Source: a virus. Taken from it: 30,428 nt of DNA. Below the pieces are notes generated by a model, which worked only from the letters and a program-made list of their open reading frames with translations, ran no database searches and had not been told where the DNA came from. Made by a program: the position numbers and the translations under genes. Location of the stretch: the IMG/VR virus record IMGVR_UViG_3300037491_000011, positions 1 through 30,428 of that record; one strand, 5' to 3'. This document shows positions 5,125 through 30,428 of the stretch, piece after piece (within the stretch, counting starts at the first letter, position 1; each line of letters begins with the position of its first letter).

Positions 5125-6084
5125 CTAAAAGTCCGCAAATTGCGTTACACCGCATAAACCTGTCGCAGTGCCCATATTGCCGACACCGACATGATCATAA
5201 AGCACCAACCGGCGCACCCCATTCGAGGCCGTACCCTGTAGCGCGTAAGTTCCACGCACATCGCCAGTCGTCGCCGTCGCCGGACTTGTCGTATCAGCCA
5301 CAGTAAAGCCCGTGGGTGAGGCCACAAGCGTCGTATCCGGCCACCAAATCGTCGCGAACTGAAAGTGATCAATCCGCAGGAAAAACCCATACGTGTCGCT
5401 CTGCCCCGCACTCACATTCGATCCCGACAACGTGCCCGCAGGCGTAATCGACAGGATGTACTTGAACGCCTTGTTTCCCGTCGCTGTCACGGCGTTCGAC
5501 CCGGTGATGGTCTCCGTCATCGGATAGTTGTAAAGATCAAACCCGCGAACCGTAAAGGTCGCCGCCGAATCATTACCCACCGACGCGATCGAAACCGCCC
5601 GCGCAACCGCCGTTCCCGGCGCCCAAAAGATATTCCCGCCAACCGACGCATTCTGCTGCGGTACCTGCGCCGCATCGATCAACAGCAGCCCCGTTACCGT
5701 CGCCCCGGTATCCGCCCGCGTGATCGATTGACCAACCGTAATCCCGCCACCCGAGGTCGTTACCAGCGTCAGCGGCACGCCCGCGCTCGGTACCTGCGCC
5801 GCCGCCATCGATGTCGTGCTCAGCGTCGTCGGAACCGCATTCAGGCACTCAAAGCGCCCCATGCCCCACCAACCATACGCACCACGCTCCCCTTCCGCCA
5901 ACCCGCCCGCCGCCGCACCCGGCGAATAGCAATACGGCTTGCGCGGGTCCATGATCCCGCAACCCTGATCCCACAGGCTCGGCGAACGCGATCCGTTGTA
6001 ATCCGACGCCTGACCCAATCCCTGGCCCGATGGCACACTCTGGCCAAAGCCAACAAACGGACCCTTGTGTGCAGTTATGCCCAT
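5125..6084 (-). CDS. Beta-rich phage structural protein (hypothetical)
   Basis: A 319-residue Gly/Ser/Thr-rich protein with an N-terminal segment rich in Gly and aromatic residues (GPFVGFGQSVPSGQGLGQ; ERGAYGWWGMGRFECLN near 66-82) followed by beta-type sequence. The stretch FTVRGFDLYNYPMTETITG (about 176-194) follows a pattern seen in many phage head or tail proteins and resembles part of the 221-residue protein at 1327-1992. Its ATG overlaps the TAA of the endonuclease VII-like gene (TAATG), with AAGGA about 9 bases upstream. Probably a virion protein; its location two genes downstream of the major capsid supports that, but no specific role can be given. Confidence 0.6.
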   Translation of the reverse strand: MGITAHKGPFVGFGQSVPSGQGLGQASDYNGSRSPSLWDQGCGIMDPRKPYCYSPGAAAGGLAEGERGAYGWWGMGRFECLNAVPTTLSTTSMAAAQVPSAGVPLTLVTTSGGGITVGQSITRADTGATVTGLLLIDAAQVPQQNASVGGNIFWAPGTAVARAVSIASVGNDSAATFTVRGFDLYNYPMTETITGSNAVTATGNKAFKYILSITPAGTLSGSNVSAGQSDTYGFFLRIDHFQFATIWWPDTTLVASPTGFTVADTTSPATATTGDVRGTYALQGTASNGVRRLVLYDHVGVGNMGTATGLCGVTQFADF

Positions 6085-6452
6085 TAGGAGGCGTCCTTCT
6101 TCAGCGGCACCACGTTCGTCCGTGCCGCAAATGATTCGAGATACTCTGCAGCAGCGAGAAGAAGCTCGGGGTTATCTTTGAAATATCCCAAACCGGGATT
6201 GCAATTCGTGCAGCAAAGACCCCTCACCGAATGTCGCCCCCTTCCGCGAGAATGATCGTGATCCACCGCTAACCACTTAGTCTGCCCATTCCGTTGTGCG
6301 GTTTCCGGTTCCTTACAGATTGCACATACGCCATTTTGGGCAACAAGCATATCCTGATATTCAGCAAGCGTGATCCCAAGCCGCCTGTCCGCGAGCGATT
6401 GCGTGGGCAGCCACAAAAGATGCTTCACGCTCACTTGCAGCGGCGACACCAT
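6084..6452 (-). CDS. Recombination endonuclease VII-like HNH nuclease
   Basis: About 122 residues. The core matches the endonuclease VII family (T4 gp49 type): LGITLAEYQDMLVAQNGVCAICKEP, then VDHDHSRG, VRGLCCTNCNPGLGYFKDN and a C-terminal helix. The four zinc Cys (CAIC and CTNC) and the catalytic DHDH are intact, so it is likely an active beta-beta-alpha-metal nuclease. T4 gp49 resolves branched DNA; many small phage relatives are free-standing homing-type nucleases. The start is uncertain: ATG at 6452 or GTG at 6449 both follow AGGAG at non-ideal spacing, and the first 20 or so residues overlap the end of the AP2 gene in another frame. It is inserted between the major capsid and a structural gene, a typical site for nuclease insertion. 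Confidence 0.75.
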   Translation of the reverse strand: MVSPLQVSVKHLLWLPTQSLADRRLGITLAEYQDMLVAQNGVCAICKEPETAQRNGQTKWLAVDHDHSRGRGRHSVRGLCCTNCNPGLGYFKDNPELLLAAAEYLESFAARTNVVPLKKDAS

Positions 6453-6924
6453 ACTCCTCTGCTGCCGCAATAAAAGCTGCCGCCGCCTCTTCTTTTGTAG
6501 AAAACCTTCCGAGATGCTTCAGTTTATAGTCGCGCGTGATCGTCGCCAACCACTTCCCCCGCGCCGCATCCCACGTAACACCACGACTCCCGCTCTTATT
6601 CCCCTTGCGTAATCCGCCCTTTCGAGCCGTTTCCGCAGCGGTTTGCAATTTCAGATTTGATAAACAAAGATCAAGATAGTCGCCGTTTTCTGGCGCAACG
6701 TTACCCTCTGGCCATTCGCCATATGTAATCGCCCATACAATACGGTGGGCCAAAACACGATAGCCATCTACGCCGACATAGAGCCGCCCGTTAGCGGCTA
6801 CAGCGCCAGCTTCATCGCCGATCCTAATCCGATGTGAGGTTGATGTTTTCCACGTCAACCTGCCCGCATGCGGATCATAAGAAAACAGTTCACGAAGGCG
6901 TTCAACAGGAATAGCGCTCGTCAT
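6361..6924 (-). CDS. HNH/AP2-domain protein with degenerate HNH motif
   Basis: A 187-residue protein. Residues 60-95 align with the HNH_3 type (HRIVWAITYGEWPEG ... NGDYLDLCLSNLKL), but the Asp-His before NGD is replaced by Ala-Pro (about 77-78), so the nuclease centre looks dead. Residues about 111-157 form an AP2 DNA-binding domain: SGSRGVTWDAARGKWLATI, then LGRFSTKEEAAAAFIAAAEEYG. The ATG at 6924 has AGGAG 8 bases upstream and gives the start expected for the family (IPVERLRELFSYDP); a GTG at 6972 after GGAGAAAAA is an alternative. The last 30 or so residues are encoded over the start of the endonuclease VII-like gene and lack AP2 features, suggesting a frameshift or fused insertion. Confidence 0.7.
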   Translation of the reverse strand: MTSAIPVERLRELFSYDPHAGRLTWKTSTSHRIRIGDEAGAVAANGRLYVGVDGYRVLAHRIVWAITYGEWPEGNVAPENGDYLDLCLSNLKLQTAAETARKGGLRKGNKSGSRGVTWDAARGKWLATITRDYKLKHLGRFSTKEEAAAAFIAAAEEYGVAAASEREASFVAAHAIARGQAAWDHAC

Positions 6925-7043
6925 CTCCACGGCTCCTGGATACAGGTTGGCGATGACGTGTACGTTACTCACTTTTTCTCCTGTCGTCAACAATAAAATT
7001 TCACATAGCCTGACTAACTTTCGGTATTTACCCTAGTATTAAC

Positions 7044-16557: not shown

Positions 16558-19446
16558 TTATAGGTCGTAGGGCAACGCGCGAGCACGTTGCGTCGGCCAC
16601 GTCATCGACTGCTCTTCGCCCTTGTCCCAAGCTTCGCGGCGCTCGAAGATGCCGATATCGCTTAGATGTTTGAGAGCACCACTACAAGCGTCCATGGTGT
16701 CGTCATGTCTTCCTCTAGGAAATAAGCAAATTTCCTCAATCAATGGTTCGCACCAGACGGGTCTCGTTCCATCTTCATACATCGGAATATAGAGTTGGTG
16801 TGACGAAAATATCCACTGTACTGCATGAGCGCGCGCCCATTTGTCCCCACGTGCGGCCTTTAACTCTGTTGCCCATGTCTGATCAGAAAAAAGCCGTCGT
16901 AATTCTTGTTCTAAACCGTGCCCTTGGCCCTGAGTCTCAATCCCAAGATATTCGACTTTATAGCGTCGGCAGGTGTCATTAACCCATTCCACCAATCCCC
17001 AGTTGGCTTGCCGCTGTTCTCGATATCGCGGCGAACGCCATTCCTCTGCCGTCACACCAGAAGGCAATTCATCGGGCGGTCCATGTAACTCTAGCCGCTT
17101 GGTCCATCCATAAAGCAACAACACCTTTGGAAACCCGTAGTCATCAGCCTCTCGAATATATGTACCGTCCCCATTAGGGACGATGCGCCCCTTGCCCTCC
17201 GCCCTGAACACACCAAACACCAACATCGCGCTTCGATCATTCTGCTGTCTCTCGGTAAACGCCGTGTCCACCCATGCCACGACATATTCCAACGCAGGAT
17301 ACTGTATCCGGCCGTTTCGGATCATGTCTTGCGGAAACGTTCCATCAGGCAATAATGGAGGCCACGGTTCCAACCACTCTGCCTTAATAATTCCGCCGCC
17401 TTTTGGTATAGGAAGCTGTTGTAACTGACCTGCTACACTGTATTCCGTAAGACGATCGCCATCAAGAGCACGTAATCCTTGCTCTATTTGCTTGAGAGCA
17501 CTATCGGTCCACACTGCTGGCCAAAGTAATTCTCCACGCTCTGTTCTTGGGTCTCCTTGGCATGCTCGATCAGGATCAAATCTGGCCGGGTACATCAAGT
17601 GTACAGTGTCTTCTGGCCAGTTTTTTAGTGCCCAATCTGTTGCATCAAGAGTGTGTAATCTTTGCATGATCAATATTCGTGCAGACGTGCGCGGATCTGT
17701 AATACGAGTTGTCAAATCACTCATACCACGAATTGAAGCATTGCGCTCCATTTCACTATCCGCACCTCTGCGAGTTTGGGGATCGTCGCAGATTATTAAA
17801 TTTCCGCCACGGCCCAACAGGCCGCCTTCGATTGAACTTGACATGCGCTCACCACCAGCAGTATTGCCGAAGTTGGCTCTGCTCTGCTGATCCGGCAGTA
17901 TTTTTACTTGTTTACCCCAATGTTTTTGATACCATTCCCCCATAACCAGTCGTCGCATCTTAACGGCAAGTTCCTCTGAAAGAATAGAACCGTATGACAC
18001 AGACAAAATCTTCACATGAGGGCCAGAAAGAGGCCCCCATTTCGCTTCTGGCTGTATCCATAGCCATGCTGGGAAGATAATATTGACCAAATTGCTGTTA
18101 TGAACAGCCAAATCATTAACCGTAAAACTCTCGTCTTCTTTAACGGTCAGGCATCTACATTCCGCCTTGCCTGCGCCAACGATGCTAAGAACGGGATCAG
18201 GATGAAGGACAGTGTGGAAACTCCGAGGCGTTGCTGCCTCTATCGCTCTTTTTTTCCTTTCGCAAAGACCTGGCAAAAATTTGAATTTGCTAACATTCGT
18301 TTCATCAGTGGCCCCCACATCAAATGATGTGTATAACCCTCCCGGCTGTCGCTTGCTTTCAAGTTTTGCCACACGGCGACGAATACGAGTATTGATCCCT
18401 ATTCGTAGACACAAATGTTGAATATCCCTAGCCAAACCTTCTGATACAGTAGTCATTTTCGCTTCGTGGCTTAGTCGTGTATCATTTCTATGCTTTACTG
18501 CAAAATATCCGTCACAACTGGCATACGCCCCAACAAAATTTGATATAATCGTATTGTTCGCCCGCAACACAGCGGCGGGAACTCGTTTGGTATAACTGTC
18601 AGAACCACGCAAGCCATGGCCCCCTAGAAATTCCTGCAGACGCCCACTTCGGTTAGAATGGACTCCTATCGCCGTACAGGTACCCACCCGTGTCCGTCGT
18701 TTAGTCTCAAATCCTAGCGCGTGTGCGCATCGTTCAAAATCATCCAGGATTTCTTCTTCATTCCCCGTAAACGAAATTCCTGTGTATTTAACAGAACCAT
18801 CACCGATCAAATATCCCAAAAAACGCGCTTCTTCCGTTGACATGCTTGGGGACACAACTTCGCTCCCCGTCGCATCTCCGCCCACCGCTGCCAAAATATC
18901 TGTCGTCTTTAATTCCCCGGCGGCTACCCAACCACGCGTGGTTAAAAACGGATGATCTGGCGCCACCTTTGCTCGGCGTCCCTGAAATGTTTCTACCGCT
19001 ATGACATCCAACAATCCCTGTTCATGAACCGCCGTGACAGGTCTATATTGTCCCCTATGCGTCAGTACACGATCACCAACTTTAATGTCTCCCAATCTTA
19101 TTGGTCCAATGTCCGTCAATACCATTTCATCTATACTGACCGGCTTTGTGTGCCTCGGAGGTATGTTGATAATGAGATTTCTTATCTTTCCCGTTCTTAT
19201 TTGCCGTAATTTCTTGGCGATTTCTATATGATGCCAATTAATTTCTAATGTCTGCGTCTCACCAATTTCCTTCCACGCATGGCGCATGAACTCAATCAGC
19301 GACCGCTCGCAATTCTCCTTTTCCTGCTTGTTCGCCCTCATCTCCAGCAGGATCGCAAGCTCGATCTGCTCTTCCTTGGTGAGCGGCTTTAGCTTTTTCC
19401 GATCGACGTTGGGGTTTGGTCGGAGAATTAATTGACCGCCGGGCAT
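16558..19446 (-). CDS. terL: Terminase large subunit (TerL) interrupted by an intein
   Basis: A 962-residue precursor: TerL N-part (about 101 residues), intein (349), TerL C-part. The packaging ATPase Walker A is split: NIIPPRHTK-type sequence (IINIPPRHTK) ends before the intein and SNLVNIIFPAW resumes after it. Walker B is LIICDDP. The nuclease domain shows VAWVDTAFTE, EYLGIETQGQG and GRHDDTMDA acidic motifs. The spliced protein of about 613 residues would power DNA translocation into the head and cut the concatemer. The ATG at 19446 follows the upstream stop by 6 bases; a TTG two codons earlier is less likely. Without splicing the ATPase cannot form, so packaging depends on the intein. The C-terminal tail is charged. 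Confidence 0.9.
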   Translation of the reverse strand: MPGGQLILRPNPNVDRKKLKPLTKEEQIELAILLEMRANKQEKENCERSLIEFMRHAWKEIGETQTLEINWHHIEIAKKLRQIRTGKIRNLIINIPPRHTKPVSIDEMVLTDIGPIRLGDIKVGDRVLTHRGQYRPVTAVHEQGLLDVIAVETFQGRRAKVAPDHPFLTTRGWVAAGELKTTDILAAVGGDATGSEVVSPSMSTEEARFLGYLIGDGSVKYTGISFTGNEEEILDDFERCAHALGFETKRRTRVGTCTAIGVHSNRSGRLQEFLGGHGLRGSDSYTKRVPAAVLRANNTIISNFVGAYASCDGYFAVKHRNDTRLSHEAKMTTVSEGLARDIQHLCLRIGINTRIRRRVAKLESKRQPGGLYTSFDVGATDETNVSKFKFLPGLCERKKRAIEAATPRSFHTVLHPDPVLSIVGAGKAECRCLTVKEDESFTVNDLAVHNSNLVNIIFPAWLWIQPEAKWGPLSGPHVKILSVSYGSILSEELAVKMRRLVMGEWYQKHWGKQVKILPDQQSRANFGNTAGGERMSSSIEGGLLGRGGNLIICDDPQTRRGADSEMERNASIRGMSDLTTRITDPRTSARILIMQRLHTLDATDWALKNWPEDTVHLMYPARFDPDRACQGDPRTERGELLWPAVWTDSALKQIEQGLRALDGDRLTEYSVAGQLQQLPIPKGGGIIKAEWLEPWPPLLPDGTFPQDMIRNGRIQYPALEYVVAWVDTAFTERQQNDRSAMLVFGVFRAEGKGRIVPNGDGTYIREADDYGFPKVLLLYGWTKRLELHGPPDELPSGVTAEEWRSPRYREQRQANWGLVEWVNDTCRRYKVEYLGIETQGQGHGLEQELRRLFSDQTWATELKAARGDKWARAHAVQWIFSSHQLYIPMYEDGTRPVWCEPLIEEICLFPRGRHDDTMDACSGALKHLSDIGIFERREAWDKGEEQSMTWPTQRARALPYDL
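18097..19143 (-). mobile_element. Intein with LAGLIDADG homing endonuclease, Pro at position 1
   Basis: A 349-residue in-frame element inserted between the Lys and Ser of TerL Walker A. Block A is PVSIDEMVLTD with Pro (CCG, 19143-19141) where Cys or Ser is expected. Block B reads VAPDHPFLTTRGW, with the His present but Ala for the usual Thr. The homing domain has both motifs with acidic residues, FLGYLIGDGS and FVGAYASCDGYF. Block F is CRCLTVKEDESF, with Cys at the place used by class 3 inteins; block G is VHN followed by Ser +1. Endonuclease motifs look active, so it is probably a mobile intein. The Pro1 implies splicing without a first N-S acyl shift at the upstream junction, or loss of splicing. 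Confidence 0.85.
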
Positions 19447-19452
19447 GGGCAA

Positions 19453-21642: not shown

Positions 21643-21889
21643 CACGTGTGTCTGCCGCAGCGTCGCTTGCGATCTCGCCGTTGTGCGCCGCGACATCGGA
21701 CACTGCCCACTCGGACCATTCACCGTCATCCTCGACGCGCTCGCTTAGCAGATAGGTTTCAAAGGCACCAGCCATAGCAACGGCGGCATCAGCGGTAGCT
21801 GTATGACAGAAACGGCAAGCCTGCTCCAAGCAAAACCTGCGCAATTGCACTAACTCGCCATCGCTAAACGCTATCGTCAGCTTCGGCAT
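21632..21889 (-). CDS. Small helical phage protein (85 aa)
   Basis: An 85-residue protein, MPKLTIAFSDGELVQLRRFC..., helical with a Cys pair in EQACRFCHTATA, then an acidic Ala-rich tail. The ATG at 21889 has GAGGAG eight bases upstream and overlaps the TerS stop by 26 bases; an upstream ATG in the same frame lies wholly within TerS coding and is less likely. It is the first gene after TerS in the packaging operon. Family and function unknown. Confidence 0.55.
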   Translation of the reverse strand: MPKLTIAFSDGELVQLRRFCLEQACRFCHTATADAAVAMAGAFETYLLSERVEDDGEWSEWAVSDVAAHNGEIASDAAADTRDAA

Positions 21890-22442
21890 TACCCGACTCC
21901 TCATCCTCGAAATCTTGTGCGTCATGGTCAATTACAATGCCAGCGCGTTCGGCCAGCGTCCAGATATGATCCTCGCGTTGATCATCAGCCATTTGCCCAA
22001 GGCGATGTTCAACCGAACCAGTGTGTTCAACCTCGCGACGATCTGACCATTCAAACCTACGGCGGTTCTTCAGCCAGATAAACGCGGCCGCTGTGTCGGG
22101 CGGATAGTGCTCGACATAAGGCGCATAGATCGGCGCTTCGGCTCCCTGCGGCATAAGTATCTTGACCGCGTCGTGCGAGTAACCCTTAGCTCGCTCATAA
22201 AGACTACGCACTATTTGCGCATCAGCTATTTCGCCCCCGCTTTTTACGGATTGCCCAAATTCAGGATGTAGCTTGCAATATGTTGCGAAGCGTCTTGGCG
22301 ATACACCAAGTTTAGCTGCCATTTGTTGTTGGTTAAGGCCGAGGAGCGCCAGGTTCTTTACCTGTTCAACCATTTCAGGTCTGTAATTAGTTGGTCTCCC
22401 AACTTTGCGACTTGGCTTTTGTTGGCGCTGTGTTTGGGGCAT
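21864..22442 (-). CDS. terS: Probable terminase small subunit (TerS)
   Basis: A 192-residue protein. Residues about 10-25 read RKVGRPTNYRPEM, followed by a helix-turn-helix, ALLGLNQQQMAAKLGVSPRRFATYC, given in two parts: ALLGLNQQQMAAKLG and VSPRRFATYC. Then HPEFGQSVKSGGEIADAQIV and the characteristic SLYERAKGYSHDAVKI, with PVYAPYVEHYPPD-type sequence and WLKNRRRFEW. These are features of phage small terminases or TerS-like HTH proteins that recognise the packaging site. The ATG at 22442 gives a family-like start and lies 7 bases after a possible -10; in-frame upstream ATGs (22508, 22562) would lie over the divergent promoter. It is the first gene of the packaging operon, as expected. Confidence 0.75.
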   Translation of the reverse strand: MPQTQRQQKPSRKVGRPTNYRPEMVEQVKNLALLGLNQQQMAAKLGVSPRRFATYCKLHPEFGQSVKSGGEIADAQIVRSLYERAKGYSHDAVKILMPQGAEAPIYAPYVEHYPPDTAAAFIWLKNRRRFEWSDRREVEHTGSVEHRLGQMADDQREDHIWTLAERAGIVIDHDAQDFEDEESGNAEADDSV

Positions 22443-22449
22443 GAGGGCG

Positions 22450-22478
22450 CATATAACGCGGATTTGCGAGGATTGCAA
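22450..22478 (-). promoter_or_regulatory. Possible late-operon promoter upstream of TerS
   Basis: On the minus strand TTGCAA (22478-22473) and TATATG (22455-22450) are 17 bases apart, four of six matches each. The start point would fall at or next to the TerS ATG, giving a leaderless message. Phage late promoters are often activator-dependent, so this weak match is only suggestive. It lies back to back with the plus-strand promoter at 22490-22529. Confidence 0.35.
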
Positions 22479-22489
22479 GCGGGGCTGTT

Positions 22490-22529
22490 GTGCGATTTGT
22501 GTTGACATGGCGATAGCGCGGCGTATGAT
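22490..22529 (+). promoter_or_regulatory. Strong sigma70-like promoter with upstream GTGCGATTT element
   Basis: GTGCGATTT (22490-22498), three bases, then TTGACA (22502-22507), a 16-base spacer and TATGAT (22524-22529). Both hexamers are near-perfect. Transcription would start near 22536 and run through the three plus-strand genes to the terminator at 23549. The upstream element recurs at 28524 and 28809. Confidence 0.75.
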
Positions 22530-22555
22530 GGGATTGTCAGAACGGGAGAACGGAA

Positions 22556-22936
22556 ATGACATATCAGCCACCGATTACAGTACGCAAAGCCGAAGTAGCG
22601 CCGATCGTCGCGGCCACGTTCCCAGAATATCGCGGTAAGAAATTCCGCGTAGAGTTCCGCGAACAAGTCTGTCTGTTGGATCTGAATTGGTCCGGCGGGT
22701 CACGGAGTCAGTACCGCGCTTGCACGTTAAGCGGCGAAGCACTTGGTTCATCGGCGAAGTACAACGCAATGGCGCCATGGGACTCGCGGCAAGTCGAAGG
22801 ACAGAGCGTAGCGGTTCCGCAAGGCGCTTGCATGGTTCGCCATAGCCATTTCTGCGGGAAGGACACGGGAATCACGATCACAATAAACCCGGCAGATGCG
22901 CCGAAATGGATCGAACATCAGAACAGCGCGGCATAG
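22556..22936 (+). CDS. Conserved small phage protein (126 aa)
   Basis: A 126-residue protein, MTYQPPITVRKAEVAPIVAA..., with ATFPEYRGKKFRVEF and LDLNWSGGSRSQYRA, motifs that I associate with a small conserved protein common in phage early regions; its function is not known to me. It is mixed beta/alpha with three Cys. GGGAG lies 8 bases before the ATG. First gene of a short plus-strand operon driven by the promoter at 22490-22529 and closed by the terminator at 23549-23575. Likely an early protein acting on host or phage regulation, inferred from operon type. Confidence 0.65.
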   Translation: MTYQPPITVRKAEVAPIVAATFPEYRGKKFRVEFREQVCLLDLNWSGGSRSQYRACTLSGEALGSSAKYNAMAPWDSRQVEGQSVAVPQGACMVRHSHFCGKDTGITITINPADAPKWIEHQNSAA

Positions 22937-23251: not shown

Positions 23252-23524
23252 ATGACATCAGATTATCCGACGCGCGGTTTCAACATCGTGCAGCCATCAA
23301 TCGCTGAGACACAATTGACTGGCTGGGTTGCGACCGCTCAGTTCTCGCGGCTTGGTCACGAGTATGCGATCAAGTTCATTGACAACCGCATGCCGCGCCT
23401 CAGCGTCGAGTGCATGCGCGACGGCAAGCCGATCGCGTGGCACCGCTTGAGCGACAAGGCTCGGCAGGTGGCGCACAAAGCAGCCGATTTTCTCAAGAGC
23501 GCTCGGGCGATTGCCGCAGCGTAG
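23252..23524 (+). CDS. Small hypothetical early protein (90 aa)
   Basis: A 90-residue protein, MTSDYPTRGFNIVQPSIAET..., alpha/beta with a C-terminal amphipathic helix (DKARQVAHKAADFLKSARAI). AGGGGAG is about 10 bases before the ATG. It is the last gene of the plus-strand operon and is followed after 24 bases by a strong terminator. No family recognised. Confidence 0.6.
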   Translation: MTSDYPTRGFNIVQPSIAETQLTGWVATAQFSRLGHEYAIKFIDNRMPRLSVECMRDGKPIAWHRLSDKARQVAHKAADFLKSARAIAAA

Positions 23525-23575: not shown

Positions 23576-23992
23576 GCGGACGACGTTGCGATGTTGCGAT
23601 TATTTTCGCGCGGCGCGCTGACCCACGGCATAGCGGGCAAAGGGACATTCGGGACATTTTTGAGCGTTTTCTATTCACGCTCTATAGGAATCACTCTTTT
23701 GTTCCCCACTAGTTCTAATTTAGGTGTTTTTTTTCAATATATCGATTCTTAGTAGAAAGATGTCCCTAATGTCTCTTTGGGCGTCGATATGCCGCTGTCG
23801 GTCAATGGGTTAACCCAAGGGACATCACGAAAAATAATGTCCCTTGGGATGTCCCTAATGTCTCTTAGCAAAGGGACATCACAGGGACATCTTTTGGGGG
23901 GCAAATAATGTCCCTGTGCATAATGTCCCTTTGTTTTTAGGTCAGGTTGCATGACCTATAAATTCAGATTGTCGCAACAAAAATAGCAACGT
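23576..23992. repeat. Gene-free array of GGGACAT/ATGTCCC repeats with nested hairpins; candidate replication origin
   Basis: About 417 bases without a credible gene, between two converging operons. GGGACAT occurs at 23642, 23651, 23819, 23873 and 23884; ATGTCCC at 23760, 23837, 23849, 23908 and 23923; the variant ATGTCTC at 23769 and 23858. GATGTCCCTAATGTCTCTT occurs twice (23759, 23848). CCCAAGGGACAT (23814-23825) pairs perfectly with 23837-23848. A second structure pairs 23870-23879 with 23923-23932 and 23880-23890 with 23908-23918, 21 bp with a 4-base bulge. An AT-rich stretch (about 23712-23758) lies among them. Iteron-like repeats, an AT-rich stretch and the adjacent primase/helicase suggest an origin; a transcription-control or packaging site are alternatives. 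Confidence 0.8.
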
Positions 23993-26545
23993 TTAGAACG
24001 GAGGTTCATGTGTCGGTTGATTGACGCCCTCTGTTGTATGACCTGATCCGAGGGTGCCGCCAAACGGTTGCGTAAGGCGAGCGGCATCAATGTATGACAG
24101 ACCGTCTTCGGTTAAGCGAATGCCGGCCGTGAGGCGAGCACCGTTGCTTTTTCCTGGCTTGGACGATGGGCAACGGCGTTTGAGTACTGCGAGCAACGTG
24201 CGGCCTCCGGGTGGCTTGTTTTGTTTATCCGCCTCGCCGAATTGCTGACGCCACCATTCGGTCATGCAGGCGACAAGATCGCGGTTGTCCACCTTGTATC
24301 GCTTATCGATGGCGACACACTCGGTTATCCAATTTCCGATCGGTTGATTGATCTCGCGGAGTTCGTCGATTGCCGCAACCATGTTTATAGGCGGATCGAA
24401 GCGGCCTCGGGCGCGCAATCGTCGCCAGCCTTGCATGGCGAGGTTTAGGACACCGGCTAGTTCTTCTTCAATAACGATCTGGTCGATCTCGCGCAGTTGC
24501 GGATCGGTGTTGGCGGCATCTTCGGGCCACTCACGATTGAGCGGAAATATCAGCATCCTGTTGTAAACAGCTTCGGAATCATCACGGATCTTGGGGAGAC
24601 TGTTGCCGGTCCAGATAACGGGAATGTCGAGACCGGGATGCGAAACATAGGTGCCGCCAGCTATGCGAATTGAAATTGGTTCGCCGGTGACGATGACCTT
24701 AAAGCGCTCGGCCGATAAGGGTTTACTGGTCGAGCTTGCTTGCTCAATGACATCATCGGCGATCCATGCGGCGGCGTGAAGCAGTGGGGCCACGCCAAAG
24801 AGATCATCCAAATCGGTTGCTTTAATCGAGGCGCAACGCGCGGGTCCGCCAAATAGGGCGCGGTAAATGTTGGCGATGCGGGTTTTACCGCTGCGAGATT
24901 TGCCGAGGAAGAATAGTGCCTTGCGAAGATTGCGTGGTTTACCGGATACGAGTGATGCGCCCATGTGCTCGGTGAGGCAGTCGATTGCGGCTTGCATCTC
25001 GTTGTCGTTCATGCCGTCAAGGGCGGATTTGAGGAACGCAATGAATTGCGGGCAGGCTGCGGTTGGATCGTAGGCGCAATTGATGCGCCAGGTTGCATAT
25101 AGCTCGGGGTTAATGGTGGATGTCTCGCCAGTTGCCGGATTGATGACGCAATCATTGCAGACAACTAACCCGCTTTTATCCCATGGCACGGATTCGCGGT
25201 GTAGGCGCGGGCGTTCTTTGATATATCGCCATATCGAATTGAGTACTGATGAAGTCGGTTTTACCGATAGCGTTGCGGCTATGCCTTGAATGGCAACGCG
25301 AAGGCGGTGCTCGACTTCTTCGTTAAATAATTCCCAAATACCTGATGGAGCATTATATGTTGCCATTGTTTCGCCGGTTGATATCAATGTGCCGTGGTTT
25401 TGCTCCCAATAGGTAATTGTTGATTCTCCGACCGATATGATTGGTTCTGGTCCGTCGTCTTTTTTTTTCTTTTGATGTGCTTCCTCGCGTTTGGTGACGA
25501 GGTTAACTACAGTTGCGCCATTGCCGCTGTTATTAGCTGATTGCGGAGGTTTTTGTTCTTCGCGTGGTTTGGTAAATTTTGTATGAGCGCTCGCCACCAT
25601 GGCGCGGATTGAGGCTTCCTCGCGTTTCCAATTCCAGTTATCGACATATTGACCGGCTGCGGCTCGGGTTGCGGCCATGATAGAATCGACAATTTTTTGG
25701 TCTTCCTCGCCTTGGGCAACAAGCGAGGCGGACACTGATAGTTGCGTTTGATGGATACCTGTATCGCCATTGCCAAGGTATTGCATCGCGGCAAGCCGCT
25801 GTTCGGTGTCGATGGCTGGCTTGAACGACAGCAGGCGAGCGGCGGCGAGGTAGGGATTGTTGTCGTGTGGCTTGGCGTGACCATTGGTTAGCGGTGCGAT
25901 CAGGACGGGTCGCTGTCGGTCGAGCATTTCGACGATATCGTTAAATTCGATGGCGACATTTGATCCGCCAACGATATGGGCGAGTTGTGGCTGTTCTAAA
26001 TCAGTTTTGGTGTTGTGTGTGCCAGGCAGGCGCATGATGCGCGCGAGGTCGCACACAGAAAGATCGCCCGCGAGGATGCCAGCGAGTTGTTTTAGGACAT
26101 CGACGATCTGCTCATCGCGATCGGTTTTGCGGATATCGATTGGTTCGCGCAATAGCCAATAGCAATGAATGCCGCCACCGCTATCGACGATGATTGATGG
26201 CGGATATTCAATTTGATTAGAGGCGGCATCAATTGCTTGTTCTTTGGTGATGTTAAGTTTGTAGGTATCAATATCAACCCATAGTGCCGGAAGCTCGCAG
26301 CAATGGGCGCGGTCGCCTTTGCCGAAACCCGGTTGACGTGTGGCGACGCCAAAATAAACTGCGCGGCCAATATCGTCCCATTTTACGCAATGATCGCTGA
26401 CAAGCTTTGCTTGGCGCGTGAATAAAGGTCGAGCGGCGCCTTCATCTTTGACGTTTGGCAACGCTCGGATTTCGACAGCTTCGGTTGTGTGTTCAAAGAA
26501 GCGGGCGAGGAAATCACAGGATTCTGAGTAGTCAAAATCGCGCAA
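23993..26545 (-). CDS. Bifunctional primase / superfamily 3 helicase
   Basis: An 850-residue replication protein. The N-terminal half is an archaeo-eukaryotic-type primase: WVDID (89-93, metal-binding acidic pair), SGGGIHCYWLL (122-132) and LARIMRLPGTHNTK (167-180). A Lys/Gln-rich linker near 325-365 leads to a D5-type region and an SF3 helicase: Walker A GKSRSGKT (548-555), Walker B WIADD (594-598), and motif C WTGNSLP followed by YNRMLIFPL. The C-terminal part looks like a winged-helix DNA-binding tail. It would prime and unwind phage DNA. The only start available is TTG at 26545 after GGGGGGAGGG. It is the last gene of the replication operon and ends beside the repeat array. Confidence 0.85.
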   Translation of the reverse strand: MRDFDYSESCDFLARFFEHTTEAVEIRALPNVKDEGAARPLFTRQAKLVSDHCVKWDDIGRAVYFGVATRQPGFGKGDRAHCCELPALWVDIDTYKLNITKEQAIDAASNQIEYPPSIIVDSGGGIHCYWLLREPIDIRKTDRDEQIVDVLKQLAGILAGDLSVCDLARIMRLPGTHNTKTDLEQPQLAHIVGGSNVAIEFNDIVEMLDRQRPVLIAPLTNGHAKPHDNNPYLAAARLLSFKPAIDTEQRLAAMQYLGNGDTGIHQTQLSVSASLVAQGEEDQKIVDSIMAATRAAAGQYVDNWNWKREEASIRAMVASAHTKFTKPREEQKPPQSANNSGNGATVVNLVTKREEAHQKKKKDDGPEPIISVGESTITYWEQNHGTLISTGETMATYNAPSGIWELFNEEVEHRLRVAIQGIAATLSVKPTSSVLNSIWRYIKERPRLHRESVPWDKSGLVVCNDCVINPATGETSTINPELYATWRINCAYDPTAACPQFIAFLKSALDGMNDNEMQAAIDCLTEHMGASLVSGKPRNLRKALFFLGKSRSGKTRIANIYRALFGGPARCASIKATDLDDLFGVAPLLHAAAWIADDVIEQASSTSKPLSAERFKVIVTGEPISIRIAGGTYVSHPGLDIPVIWTGNSLPKIRDDSEAVYNRMLIFPLNREWPEDAANTDPQLREIDQIVIEEELAGVLNLAMQGWRRLRARGRFDPPINMVAAIDELREINQPIGNWITECVAIDKRYKVDNRDLVACMTEWWRQQFGEADKQNKPPGGRTLLAVLKRRCPSSKPGKSNGARLTAGIRLTEDGLSYIDAARLTQPFGGTLGSGHTTEGVNQPTHEPPF

Positions 26546-26584: not shown

Positions 26585-27289
26585 TTAAAAGGGGATGTCG
26601 TCGTCGAGATCTCGCTGTGTTGCGATTGATGAAGGTGCACCAGCGCCGGCTTTGCTGCCACGTCCGCCGCTTTTTGGCGGTTCTATTGCGGCTTGTGGTG
26701 TGGTGGTTGGGTTATCCGAAGATGTCCAGCCCACGACATTGAAAACGGGAAAGTAGGTTTTCCCGTAGGTCTGGTGCATGTAGAAGTCTTTTTGCAATTC
26801 GACGATCGGCAGCATGTTAGGGCGTTGGCGATATTCGCGCCCATAGACTTGGCAGAGCCGACCGATTGCGTTTAACCCGCCCTTTGAACTGGTGCCGTAG
26901 ATGTAGACTTCGGCATCATCCGTCGATAGCTGCAGGGCGTTGGTAAACCGCCACGGGTCGCGCGGTTTTCCTGTCGCGGAATCGATATCCCATAGGGTTT
27001 CATCGAGGTCGCCGAGTTCCTCGCGGCGCAACCGTATGGTCTGCGTCGTAAGCAATTCCATGCGATCATCGGTGACTTGTTTGTTTTGCCAGCGCAGCCA
27101 GCCGATTTTGAGACCGGGAAGATTTGCGATCAGCTTTGTACCAAGACTCAAGCTATCGCCGTCTTTTCCATAAAGCCATTCGCCGGTCTTGAAAGACAAG
27201 AACGTTCCTTCCTGTTGCACGACTTTGGCTGCATAAGCGGAATAGGGATCATCGCCGCCGCCGCCGGTAGGTGTGAGATCGTTTGCCAT
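26585..27289 (-). CDS. Putative single-stranded-DNA-binding protein with SSB-type tail
   Basis: A 234-residue protein. Residues about 25-180 form a beta-rich domain (FLSFKTGEWLYGKDGDSLSL, WDIDSATGKPRDPWRF, YFPVFNVVGW), then a Pro/Gly/Ser-rich linker and the terminal DLDDDIPF. That acidic tip with a final Pro-Phe is the hallmark by which bacterial SSB recruits repair and replication proteins. The core does not look like classical SSB, so a phage-specific fold or a partner-recruiting replication factor is possible. AGGA lies before the ATG. Between nuclease and primase genes in the same operon, supporting a DNA-replication role. Confidence 0.7.
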   Translation of the reverse strand: MANDLTPTGGGGDDPYSAYAAKVVQQEGTFLSFKTGEWLYGKDGDSLSLGTKLIANLPGLKIGWLRWQNKQVTDDRMELLTTQTIRLRREELGDLDETLWDIDSATGKPRDPWRFTNALQLSTDDAEVYIYGTSSKGGLNAIGRLCQVYGREYRQRPNMLPIVELQKDFYMHQTYGKTYFPVFNVVGWTSSDNPTTTPQAAIEPPKSGGRGSKAGAGAPSSIATQRDLDDDIPF

Positions 27290-27316: not shown

Positions 27317-28354
27317 TCACTTGATGGTAAGTCGGGCGCCGGGTTCGCCGACTTTTCGATATGGATCAAGATCGAGGCCGGCAGCCTCGGCAGATTTGAT
27401 ATCTACGGTTTCTCGCCCTTTTGTCGGTTGCCAGGCGATTGACCATCCGTCACCATTGACCCTGCGCACTCCATTAGCGCGCAGGAACTCCGTTATAGCA
27501 AATTTGGCTTTGGCGTGTTCTGCTTCGTCAGTGTCGCATTGTTCAGCAAGATCGCGTTCAGCATCACGTAACGCCTTGAATTCAGCCATAACATTATCGC
27601 CAAGCGGTTTTTCGTCTTTTGGAATGCCGGCGACGGTTGCGGCTTGGCAATGTGAAGACCATGGGCAGTAATTGCATTCGGCACCGCCTGCAATCTTACC
27701 TTCAGGTGGTAAATCGAGTGCGTTCATAGTATTCATGATCTGACGCGAGCGCTCTTGCGCGGCAGTGTAAATAGACGGATCAAAAGTAACGGGAAATTCT
27801 TTGATTTCATCAAGGAATGACGAGTCTATGTAACTGATTATTGCATAATCCGGTTTATAGCTGGTATGTGCGCGCAGGAGACCTAGTTGTACAATTACCT
27901 GAAATTTATGGTGACTGCGTTCTATTCTGAGATCGGCGCGCGGATCGATGCTTTTGCATTCGATGGCGAGGCAACGGGAAGGACCGATGTCAGCGATGCC
28001 GAGGTGGGCGAGGCAATCGTGCGGTAATCCGGTTAAGACACCATCTGGTGTTGCCGAGAGATAGCCGTCAACGATGGTCTGCTGGTCTACGCCGGCTAGT
28101 ACTAGGGTGATCTCGCGCGGCAGTGCGGCGCGCAATCCGGGTGTCCAATAATAATCTTCGATGAGATTGCCGCGCAATCGTGCGCCATAGCGATCTTGAT
28201 AATCGGGATCGGGCGGCGTGTCGTTTTTGGCGAACCATGTTTTGCGCAGACACGCGCCGATTTCGGATGCGCCTATGGTATTGGCGCGATCGTGGGCGAA
28301 TTCTCGATTGAGGGTAGAAGCATACTGATGCAACAGGGAGCGAATTGATAACAC
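27317..28354 (-). CDS. PD-(D/E)XK nuclease of RecB/Cas4 type with likely Fe-S cluster
   Basis: A 345-residue protein. Active-site series: GNLIEDYYW (E66), SATPDGVL (D104), LAIECKS (E132, K134) and a following Gln helix (KFQVIVQLGLL). C35 in SEIGACLRK together with C227, C230 and C236 (CNYCPWSSHC) is the one-plus-three Cys arrangement that binds a 4Fe-4S cluster in Cas4 and AddB. The C-terminal 100 residues are helical and charged. Probably a DNA exonuclease for phage recombination or host DNA turnover; no Cas genes are near. GTG start at 28354 with AGGAG ten bases upstream. First gene of the replication operon. Confidence 0.8.
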   Translation of the reverse strand: MLSIRSLLHQYASTLNREFAHDRANTIGASEIGACLRKTWFAKNDTPPDPDYQDRYGARLRGNLIEDYYWTPGLRAALPREITLVLAGVDQQTIVDGYLSATPDGVLTGLPHDCLAHLGIADIGPSRCLAIECKSIDPRADLRIERSHHKFQVIVQLGLLRAHTSYKPDYAIISYIDSSFLDEIKEFPVTFDPSIYTAAQERSRQIMNTMNALDLPPEGKIAGGAECNYCPWSSHCQAATVAGIPKDEKPLGDNVMAEFKALRDAERDLAEQCDTDEAEHAKAKFAITEFLRANGVRRVNGDGWSIAWQPTKGRETVDIKSAEAAGLDLDPYRKVGEPGARLTIK

Positions 28355-29716: not shown

Positions 29717-30428
29717 ATGGTAAACCATCCTAATCGTAATAAGCGCGCAAAGAAGACACAAGGGGCTGCGCAGAAAGTTACAGACGCCGAAACCGTAATC
29801 ACCATTAAGGGATTTGATAACAATCTTCAGTGCCGAGGGTACCAATTCGAGATTGGTAAATCATATTTGCATGATGGCCCTGTTGTTATTTGCGAAAGCG
29901 GGTTCCATGGCATCGAGGGTCATCCGCTGCAAGTGCTGCGGTACTATCGCCCAGCCAAAAGCCGATATGCGATAACGACCCAAAGCGGCAGCCTTGTTCG
30001 GCATCCTGAAGACAGTAAGATTGCATCGGCACACATTACGATTGATGCCGAAATCGGATTGCCAGCGCTCATTGAGCGGGTCGTCAAATGGGTTTTTGAT
30101 CGTGTAAAACCGGAAGCCAAAGCCGACGAGCCGAATGGAGCCGCGACAGCATCGGGCGGCTCCGGAGCCGCGACAGCATCGGGCTACTCCGGGGCCGCGA
30201 CAGCATCGGGCAACTACGGGGCCGCGACAGCATCGGGCAACTCCGGAGCCGCGACAGCATCGGGCTACTCCGGGGCCGCGACAGCATCGGGCTACTCCGG
30301 GGCCGCGACAGCATCGGGCAACTACGGAGCCGCGACAGCATCGGGCTACTCCGGGGCCGCGACAGCATCGGGCAACTCCGGGGCCGCGACAGCATCGGGC
30401 TACTCCGGGGCCGCGACAGCATCGGGCT
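29717..30428 (+). CDS. DUF7666-like protein with 9-residue GAATASGxx repeats (partial, runs off window)
   Basis: At least 237 residues, 3' end missing. After a basic start, residues about 29-137 read KGFDNNLQCRGYQFE, then VVICESGFHGIEGHPLQVL, SRYAITTQSGSLVRH, DSKIASAHITIDAEIG and ERVVKWVFDRV, matching a phage domain I know as DUF7666 (domain name from memory). From residue 141 a tandem 9-residue repeat, GAATASGxx (xx = GS, YS, NY or NS), continues to the edge. Such repeat tails may fold as a beta-solenoid like the heads of trimeric autotransporters. AGGAG lies 11 bases before the ATG. Function unknown; the frame stays open at the end. Confidence 0.7.
   Translation, partial: MVNHPNRNKRAKKTQGAAQKVTDAETVITIKGFDNNLQCRGYQFEIGKSYLHDGPVVICESGFHGIEGHPLQVLRYYRPAKSRYAITTQSGSLVRHPEDSKIASAHITIDAEIGLPALIERVVKWVFDRVKPEAKADEPNGAATASGGSGAATASGYSGAATASGNYGAATASGNSGAATASGYSGAATASGYSGAATASGNYGAATASGYSGAATASGNSGAATASGYSGAATASG
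30137..30428 (+). repeat. Tandem 27-bp coding repeat, about 10.8 copies
   Basis: Units of 27 bases beginning GGNGCCGCGACAGCATCGGG, where only the last two codons and one wobble base vary. Each encodes GAATASG plus a pair drawn from GS, YS, NY, NS. The near-identity suggests recent expansion by unequal recombination. It continues past the right edge, and it is probably why the assembly ends here. Confidence 0.9.

Follow-up and report, generated by a model that had tools for sequence, protein, structure and literature searches.

A clustered iteron array behind a phage primase-helicase gene as a probable replication origin

What does a dense cluster of one short word do directly behind the primase-helicase gene of an uncultured phage? 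The stretch of DNA that raises this question is the IMG/VR virus record IMGVR_UViG_3300037491_000011, analyzed over its full length of 30,428 bases and called the window below, and the element concerned is an array of the word GGGACAT and its complement ATGTCCC. We consider it very probable that this array is a self-initiating replication origin of the kind known from staphylococcal pathogenicity islands (SaPI), the staphylococcal cassette chromosome (SCC) and phage Sfi21, and we infer that its iterons are read by the C-terminal winged helix of the primase. The reading is supported by the anatomy of the array, the predicted fold of the protein, a conserved place with a changing word among relatives, and a coupling of word and C-terminus in two other helicase families. 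A preliminary description of the locus had proposed an iteron-type origin beside the primase, and this is now the best-supported reading from place, A+T core, protein and likeness to Sfi21.

The array (positions 23642–23929) contains ten exact copies of GGGACAT/ATGTCCC in both orientations, starting at 23642, 23651, 23760, 23819, 23837, 23849, 23873, 23884, 23908 and 23923, together with two ATGTCTC variants at 23769 and 23858, so that the ten words and two variants first described in about 290 bases are confirmed by count. The rest of the window holds a single further exact copy, at 2750. In 5000 dinucleotide shuffles of the segment 23576–23992, the word occurs 0.06 times on average and at most twice versus the ten copies observed, and in 1000 shuffles of the same segment the commonest 7-mer of any kind reaches at most six copies. 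The whole-window count of 11 is less striking (shuffle mean 3.7, largest 11); the array is therefore beyond chance because its copies are clustered, and not because of the whole-window total.

Analysis of the array reveals two repeat blocks. A far block of two direct copies (23642–23657, plus strand) is separated from the main block of eight exact copies and both variants (23760–23929) by a 102-bp segment (23658–23759) with 68% A+T, a candidate DNA-unwinding element; the next best 102-bp stretch of the window has 66.7% (scan at 10-bp steps). The A+T-rich stretch, initially placed next to the array, is thus real and lies inside it, between the blocks. A 19-mer is duplicated at 23759–23777 and 23848–23866, as had been noticed before. 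Folding of single-stranded DNA further reveals an inverted iteron pair at 23814–23848, with the predicted perfect 12-bp stem and an 11-base loop (z −4.2), and nested inverted pairs at 23868–23934 (z −9.7); in neither case do any of 200 shuffles fold as well. The nested stem and its 4-base bulge agree with the preliminary description, while its length does not: we count 23 pairs (12 + 11) instead of 21. Apart from the far block, these features are assigned no strand.

The gene beside the array, as first described a primase/helicase gene (23993–26545, minus strand), has its stop codon 63 bp from the nearest iteron and is the proposed initiator. Its product of 850 residues combines a primase-polymerase (AEP) domain, a D5_N/superfamily 3 (SF3) helicase and a C-terminal winged helix. 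It matches Pfam D5_N (1.8e-7), DUF5906 just below the cut-off, and several PHROG DNA primase families. A profile search of solved structures places the SaPI5 primase-helicase (7ola) first (E 3.5e-30), and VIA-align does the same (Z 25.9, root-mean-square deviation (rmsd) 6.2 over 397 residues, model residues 348–823), with the N-terminal AEP domain aligning to 6zp9 (Z 19.7, rmsd 2.4, 183 residues). The AlphaFold2 model, built from 13 aligned sequences, has a mean predicted local distance difference test (pLDDT) value of 78 and shows the winged helix at residues ~735–825 (24071–24343, minus strand), where ten-residue blocks have pLDDT 82–90, except 65 in the loop 771–780. The domain is taken from this full-length model, the C-terminal 140 residues folded alone giving pLDDT 39. 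Helix 781–791 of the model (24173–24205, minus strand) would be the likely recognition helix. An SF3/D5_N helicase related to SaPI5 Rep, an N-terminal primase domain (SaPI5 form) and iterons directly downstream, three traits of the SaPI5/Cch2 type, are present. No Pfam match to a Rep_3 initiator or lambda O was found among the ten window proteins scanned, and the initiator gene does not contain the array. The predicted primase C-terminus is, in our model, the best-supported candidate for the iteron binder.

The course that we propose for this phage, from iteron binding and hexamer loading to DNA melting and initiation, is as follows. The primase-helicase encoded next to the array would bind the GGGACAT iterons via its C-terminal winged helix and assemble on them as SF3 hexamers. 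These hexamers may open the A+T-rich stretch between the iteron blocks, and the enzyme, having loaded itself, would prime the forks with its N-terminal primase domain.

If the protein reads the array, what happens to the array in relatives of the protein? An alignment scan with the window primase retained the best 80 of 121 relatives (loci are numbered L below), 14 of which are full or long: L325, L326–L337 and L125. L325 is the window's own phage, a copy of the region in the 97-kb contig IMGVR_UViG_3300037845_000036 (also L031 and L124), with an identical array and a primase at least 99.9% identical. As this locus duplicates the window and L337 ends before the gene does, 12 close relatives were counted. 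In 11 of them repeats follow the primase stop codon, setting in 1–36 bases behind it. Nearly every close relative has its own iteron word (AAGTGCCGCA, TGCAAGTCGCTT, AGGTGA, GGGGCAC, ACTGCAC, GTGACGCAT, GGTGGCGCC, ACCCTG and GACGCAT; GCAAGACG is common to L332 and L333), and none shares the 7-mer of the window. The expectation that primase relatives would carry arrays of the same 7-mer therefore did not hold for the word, while arrays of other words do stand in the same place. Of the 13 loci counted with the window, 9 show one 7-mer at least five times in the 400 bp past the gene; three control stretches give 0/13, 0/13 and 0/12. The A+T core is similarly retained. When the 50 bp richest in A+T were picked from the 450 bp that follow the gene, fewer than 0.1% of the stretches compared in the locus equalled them in the window itself and in eight of the 11 repeat-bearing relatives, and there this core lies in the array or adjoins it. 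Iterons, with the word picked by eye for each locus, flank the core on both sides in 7 of the 12 loci that the window and the 11 relatives make up.

The other 66 retained loci match mainly in the primase domain, and 45 of them include the stop codon and 300 bp behind it. Among these distant loci, strong arrays of other words are seen in L343, L346, L350 (GTTCCCA), L359 (GTCCAAC) and L400 (GTCTAAC). The array layout marks the close family and recurs here and there among distant relatives. In eleven named phages, we compared the commonest 6-mer behind the primase/helicase gene with 100 shuffles. It exceeds all 100 in Sfi21 (AGTAAC, 9 copies), phi31 (GTTCCA, 10) and Javan406 (GGGACA, 8), equals the shuffle maximum in Javan389 (GGTAAC), BCJA1c (ATTTCA) and Javan377, and remains below it in Vegas, EFC-1, 9NA, vB_AmaS-R9Y3 and Vibrio 1.046.O. 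The phi31 protein, distantly related to the window primase (25% over residues 382–766), has a GTTCCA/TGGAAC array behind its gene. In the Sfi21 record (NC_000872), positions 34487–34784 are annotated as origin of replication, 302 bp non-coding and phage inhibitory sequence; this annotated origin overlaps the end of the primase gene and extends to the next gene. Two scans of genome contigs with the window primase or the alignment found no relative, and a blastn search of phages with the array reported two weak Helicobacter phage matches of 30 bases.

The word itself was followed independently of the primase. Searching viral contigs for clusters of three GGGACAT words gave at least 119 loci, versus 25 loci for the reversed word TACAGGG (12 with at least four copies). 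GGGACAT is thus enriched, yet arrays of other words exist too. In an AAA_25-type helicase cluster, the 3' end of the gene falls inside the array or no more than 204 bp from the array edge in 27 of 28 loci, the exception (L100) being 4.4 kb away. Proteins ending at an array number 48, namely the window's own and 47 drawn from 41 loci (the helicase loci L023 and L119 were left out); they include matches to AAA_25 (28), Prim-Pol (5), DnaB_C (2) and DUF5906 (2), and in a few loci (e.g., L110 and L025) the array is found instead at the 5' end of a Prim-Pol/DUF3987 gene. Arrays behind replication helicases are common, in a sample chosen for the word. A blastp search with the window primase against the open reading frames (ORFs) of the listed GGGACAT loci returned only its own phage (L031). 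We also observed arrays within the 3' coding end of a helicase gene, with the repeats translated into the protein tail (L009:7340–7502 and L087:1242–1353), and two G+C-rich-looking contigs (L054:9377–10657 and L101:1–759) where GGGACA is scattered through the ORFs around the array, as if spreading into genes. The 7-mer had also been considered as a conserved signature of SF3 primases, which is misleading, as 52 of the 119 listed loci carry a terminase-linked array.

Whether a C-terminus and an adjacent word change together was analyzed in two further sets drawn by protein similarity, each of 80 loci: set P, with AAA_25 helicases, and set F, with PriCT_2–AAA_25 helicases. The sets are not fully blind, since the P seeds and the first F seed came from the GGGACAT scan and the loci kept are those nearest to the seeds; of the two peptides used for P, one belongs to the C-terminal helix, and three P loci and one F locus duplicate loci of that scan. 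Behind the gene, 35/78 P and 31/73 F loci have some 7-mer at least five times (2 P and 7 F loci were left out for a short 3' flank), compared with at most 2/76 in any one control stretch. In P, at least four GGGACA copies follow the gene in 15/79 loci (control stretch 0/79); when only words ending in ACA are considered, 47 of the other 64 have one at least four times and 17 do not, a count made without shuffles. These words include CGGACA (9), TGGACA (9), GTGACA (8), AGGACA (5), CCGACA (4) and others.

For the coupling itself, we used loci with at least four copies of a 7-mer, thinned at 95% identity (46 in F, 40 in P). Similarity of the iterons tracks the last ~95 residues given the rest of the protein (partial r 0.39 in F and 0.58 in P, both p 0.0005), and the rest of the protein given the C-terminus yields 0.04 (p 0.15) in F and −0.16 in P. 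The F signal peaks over the stretch ending in SEKTIRRWIK (0.37–0.45) and is 0.18–0.19 in the tail nearest the iterons; the P signal is broad over the C-terminal domain (0.26–0.44) and extends into the linker. Linkage to the next downstream gene is 0.18 (p 0.002) in F and −0.07 in P, and with that gene accounted for, the C-terminal signal is 0.38 and 0.61, respectively. All 11 F loci with the motif [ED]KT[IV]RRW have at least four GGGACA copies behind the gene, compared with 0 of 63 other loci, a contrast whose Fisher significance is overstated because the loci are related (10 distinct C-termini).

These results lead us to favor, by a modest degree, a more general proposal: that in phage primase-helicases of several unrelated families the C-terminal helix-turn-helix co-diversifies with a private iteron word directly behind its own gene, so that the word may be readable from the helix. 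The motif KT[IV]xRW would go with GGGACA both in RepA-type helicases such as that of Streptococcus phage Javan406, with iterons behind the gene, and in small terminases of E. coli-type prophages, with the array in front of it, one word and one reader serving replication and, presumably, packaging. The overlap and selection of the sets lower the strength of this proposal, which stands below that of the origin itself. A limited search of the open-access literature, including the available portions of PMC7581432, PMC4234260, PMC7145576 and PMC7157519, did not find such a coupling stated; the pairing would be the more novel point of the two.

Several observations weigh against the origin reading, or against the primase as its reader. 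Relatives with the primase and no array, the contrary case named at the outset, do occur: among the 12 close relatives L327 (40% identical) lacks an array behind its gene, and only 5 of the 45 distant matches have at least five copies of a 7-mer there (controls 0/45 and 1/40); the distant-primase phages 9NA, vB_AmaS-R9Y3 and Vibrio 1.046.O are likewise without one. The 400 bp behind the L327 gene do exceed shuffles (p 0.0025), with 4 copies of the best word, a score that coding DNA may reach as well. Behind position 6556 of L327 the next gene begins immediately, and the origin of this relative may have moved. Repeats are weak in 3 of the 11 repeat-bearing relatives: those of L125 and L335 do not beat shuffles, and those of L329 are degenerate. 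Stretches in front of the gene beat shuffles at p 0.05 in 7 of 13 loci. The coupling of helix and word is weak in the window's own family (partial r 0.26, p 0.035; 12 loci, among them L327 but not L329), and its best columns are not concentrated in the C-terminus, which has 5 of the top 20. On the structural side, the model has a predicted template modeling score of 0.50, and ordering by Foldseek E-value puts AsfvPrimPol chains first and SaPI5 fifth. Finally, the GC-skew profile suggested earlier as a check has its cumulative minimum at 22262, ~1.4 kb from the array, a weakly informative result confounded by gene strand.

The alternative that survives best retains the origin and changes its reader: a separate phage or host factor would bind the iterons, and the primase-helicase would merely be loaded there. 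The weak coupling in the window's own family fits this idea, as does the presence of GGGACA behind helicases of different make (AAA_25, DUF5906, Prim-Pol). A common host factor does not explain why the word differs among close relatives, however, and in F and P it is the C-terminal domain of the neighboring helicase to which the word is coupled. We therefore regard a separate reader as improbable, if the foremost of the alternatives.

A second alternative arises from the GGGACAT loci themselves, many of which have an array immediately 5' of a Nu1-like small terminase gene (e.g., L010:4780–4920 and L005:3649–3788; so also L404–L483 and L484, the latter from E. coli ECCWS199). In 52 of the 119 listed loci the array is 0–28 bp from the start of such a gene, and in most terminase-linked arrays a GpA-type large terminase comes after it. 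The small terminases carry RKT[IV]xRW, close to the F helix, with whole-protein identity down to 38% among nine aligned. In a set of 80 terminase loci drawn by protein, of which 79 were tested and the remaining one starts at the gene, at least four GGGACA copies lie within 250 bp in front of the gene in 79/79 and in a control stretch in 0/79; all 79 carry the RKT[IV]xRW helix. The set is dependent, with 36 of the 79 start regions identical to loci of the GGGACAT scan and 62 distinct regions. Among 5426 complete E. coli genomes, 60 contain a match to a stretch of this type with large terminase, small terminase and array, and in 46 of them the match covers at least 80% of the query. Such terminase-linked arrays are possibly cos/pac packaging sites.

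By analogy, the window array could be a packaging site bound by the small terminase subunit, and it does sit between the replication and the packaging genes. Its far side has plus-strand ORFs without family matches heading toward the array, followed by the small terminase gene (21864–22571, minus strand). However, this gene starts at 22571, 1,071 bp from the array, with three plus-strand ORFs between, and its translation does not contain RKT[IV]xRW; the window thus falls outside the terminase-linked group. In addition, the repeats of close relatives keep to the primase stop codon, whereas a terminase match is found in only 3 of 12 (L332, L329 and L328), starting 1.4–2 kb behind that codon. A packaging site is hence very unlikely here.

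Least probable among the alternatives weighed is an operator or terminator array controlling transcription of the replication genes: the strong hairpins and the frequent autoregulation by plasmid iterons would suit it, but the array lies at a convergent junction, where the primase gene and the closest plus-strand ORF (23252–23524) both end toward it, and not in front of a gene, and ten sites around an A+T-rich core appear to exceed what a terminator needs. A partition site, a mobile repeat and a CRISPR-like element were dropped, as the repeats occupy a single place in the window and, in close relatives, stay next to the primase stop codon; no search aimed at partition genes was made.

Upstream of the primase-helicase gene, the module continues on the minus strand with a 234-residue gene (26585–27289), kept 5' of the primase in 13/13 other loci (L326–L337 and L125), and a 345-residue RecE/Cas4-like exonuclease gene (27317–28354). 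Elsewhere in the window, the large terminase gene (16558–19452, minus strand) has an intein that bears a LAGLIDADG endonuclease (Pfam LAGLIDADG_3, with Intein_splicing under its cut-off), an ORF running off the window (29717–30427, plus strand) encodes a GAATASG-type tandem repeat protein, and two overlapping ORFs at 6084–6993 (minus strand) are presumably HNH/endonuclease VII-type genes.

In sum, a likely replication origin can be placed in an uncultured phage from its sequence alone, and the place to look for it, behind the primase-helicase gene, held in 11 of 12 close relatives and in only 5 of 45 distant ones. The proposed pairing of helix and word would offer more than 80 natural protein–DNA pairs (the 46 and 40 thinned loci) for learning and testing a recognition code, and may account for origins remaining private in a cell that phages and satellites occupy together.

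We note that parts of this organization are familiar from other replicons. In Rep_3-type origins, short binding-site arrays stand beside an A+T-rich stretch, and the iterons of lambda lie inside the O gene. The window array differs from lambda in lying outside the initiator gene. It resembles lambda and Stx phages in its short sites beside an A+T-rich stretch, their arrays being described as adjoining one in the accessible part of PMC7466680, where a GGGACAT-type word appears once, as part of an oligonucleotide for an iteron of the lambda type. The portions available of PMC7145576 and PMC7157519 deal with initiators from other phages or satellites. Replication of pRN1 requires a region placed like the window array, directly downstream of a primase–SF3 helicase gene with a winged helix, although what is needed there is a stem-loop of ~100 nt and not iterons (PMC4234260, in the sections at hand). 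A literature search on the Sfi21 primase or ori31 gave no match; the Sfi21 record itself presents a non-coding, A+T-rich and repeat-rich region that overlaps the primase gene and continues behind it, as in the window, with different repeats (AGTAAC/GTTACT) and a shorter primase of 382 residues. The closest parallel by profile is offered by SaPI Rep and SCC Cch2, in which a D5-type initiator helicase is followed directly by short repeats that its C-terminal domain reads (PMC7581432, as far as its available text goes, and works cited there). The repeat word is AAGTG in Cch2 instead of GGGACAT, and these are staphylococcal elements whereas the window is a tailed phage; the D5-type helicase, the downstream repeats and the predicted C-terminal reader are common to both, with SaPI5 as the best solved relative.
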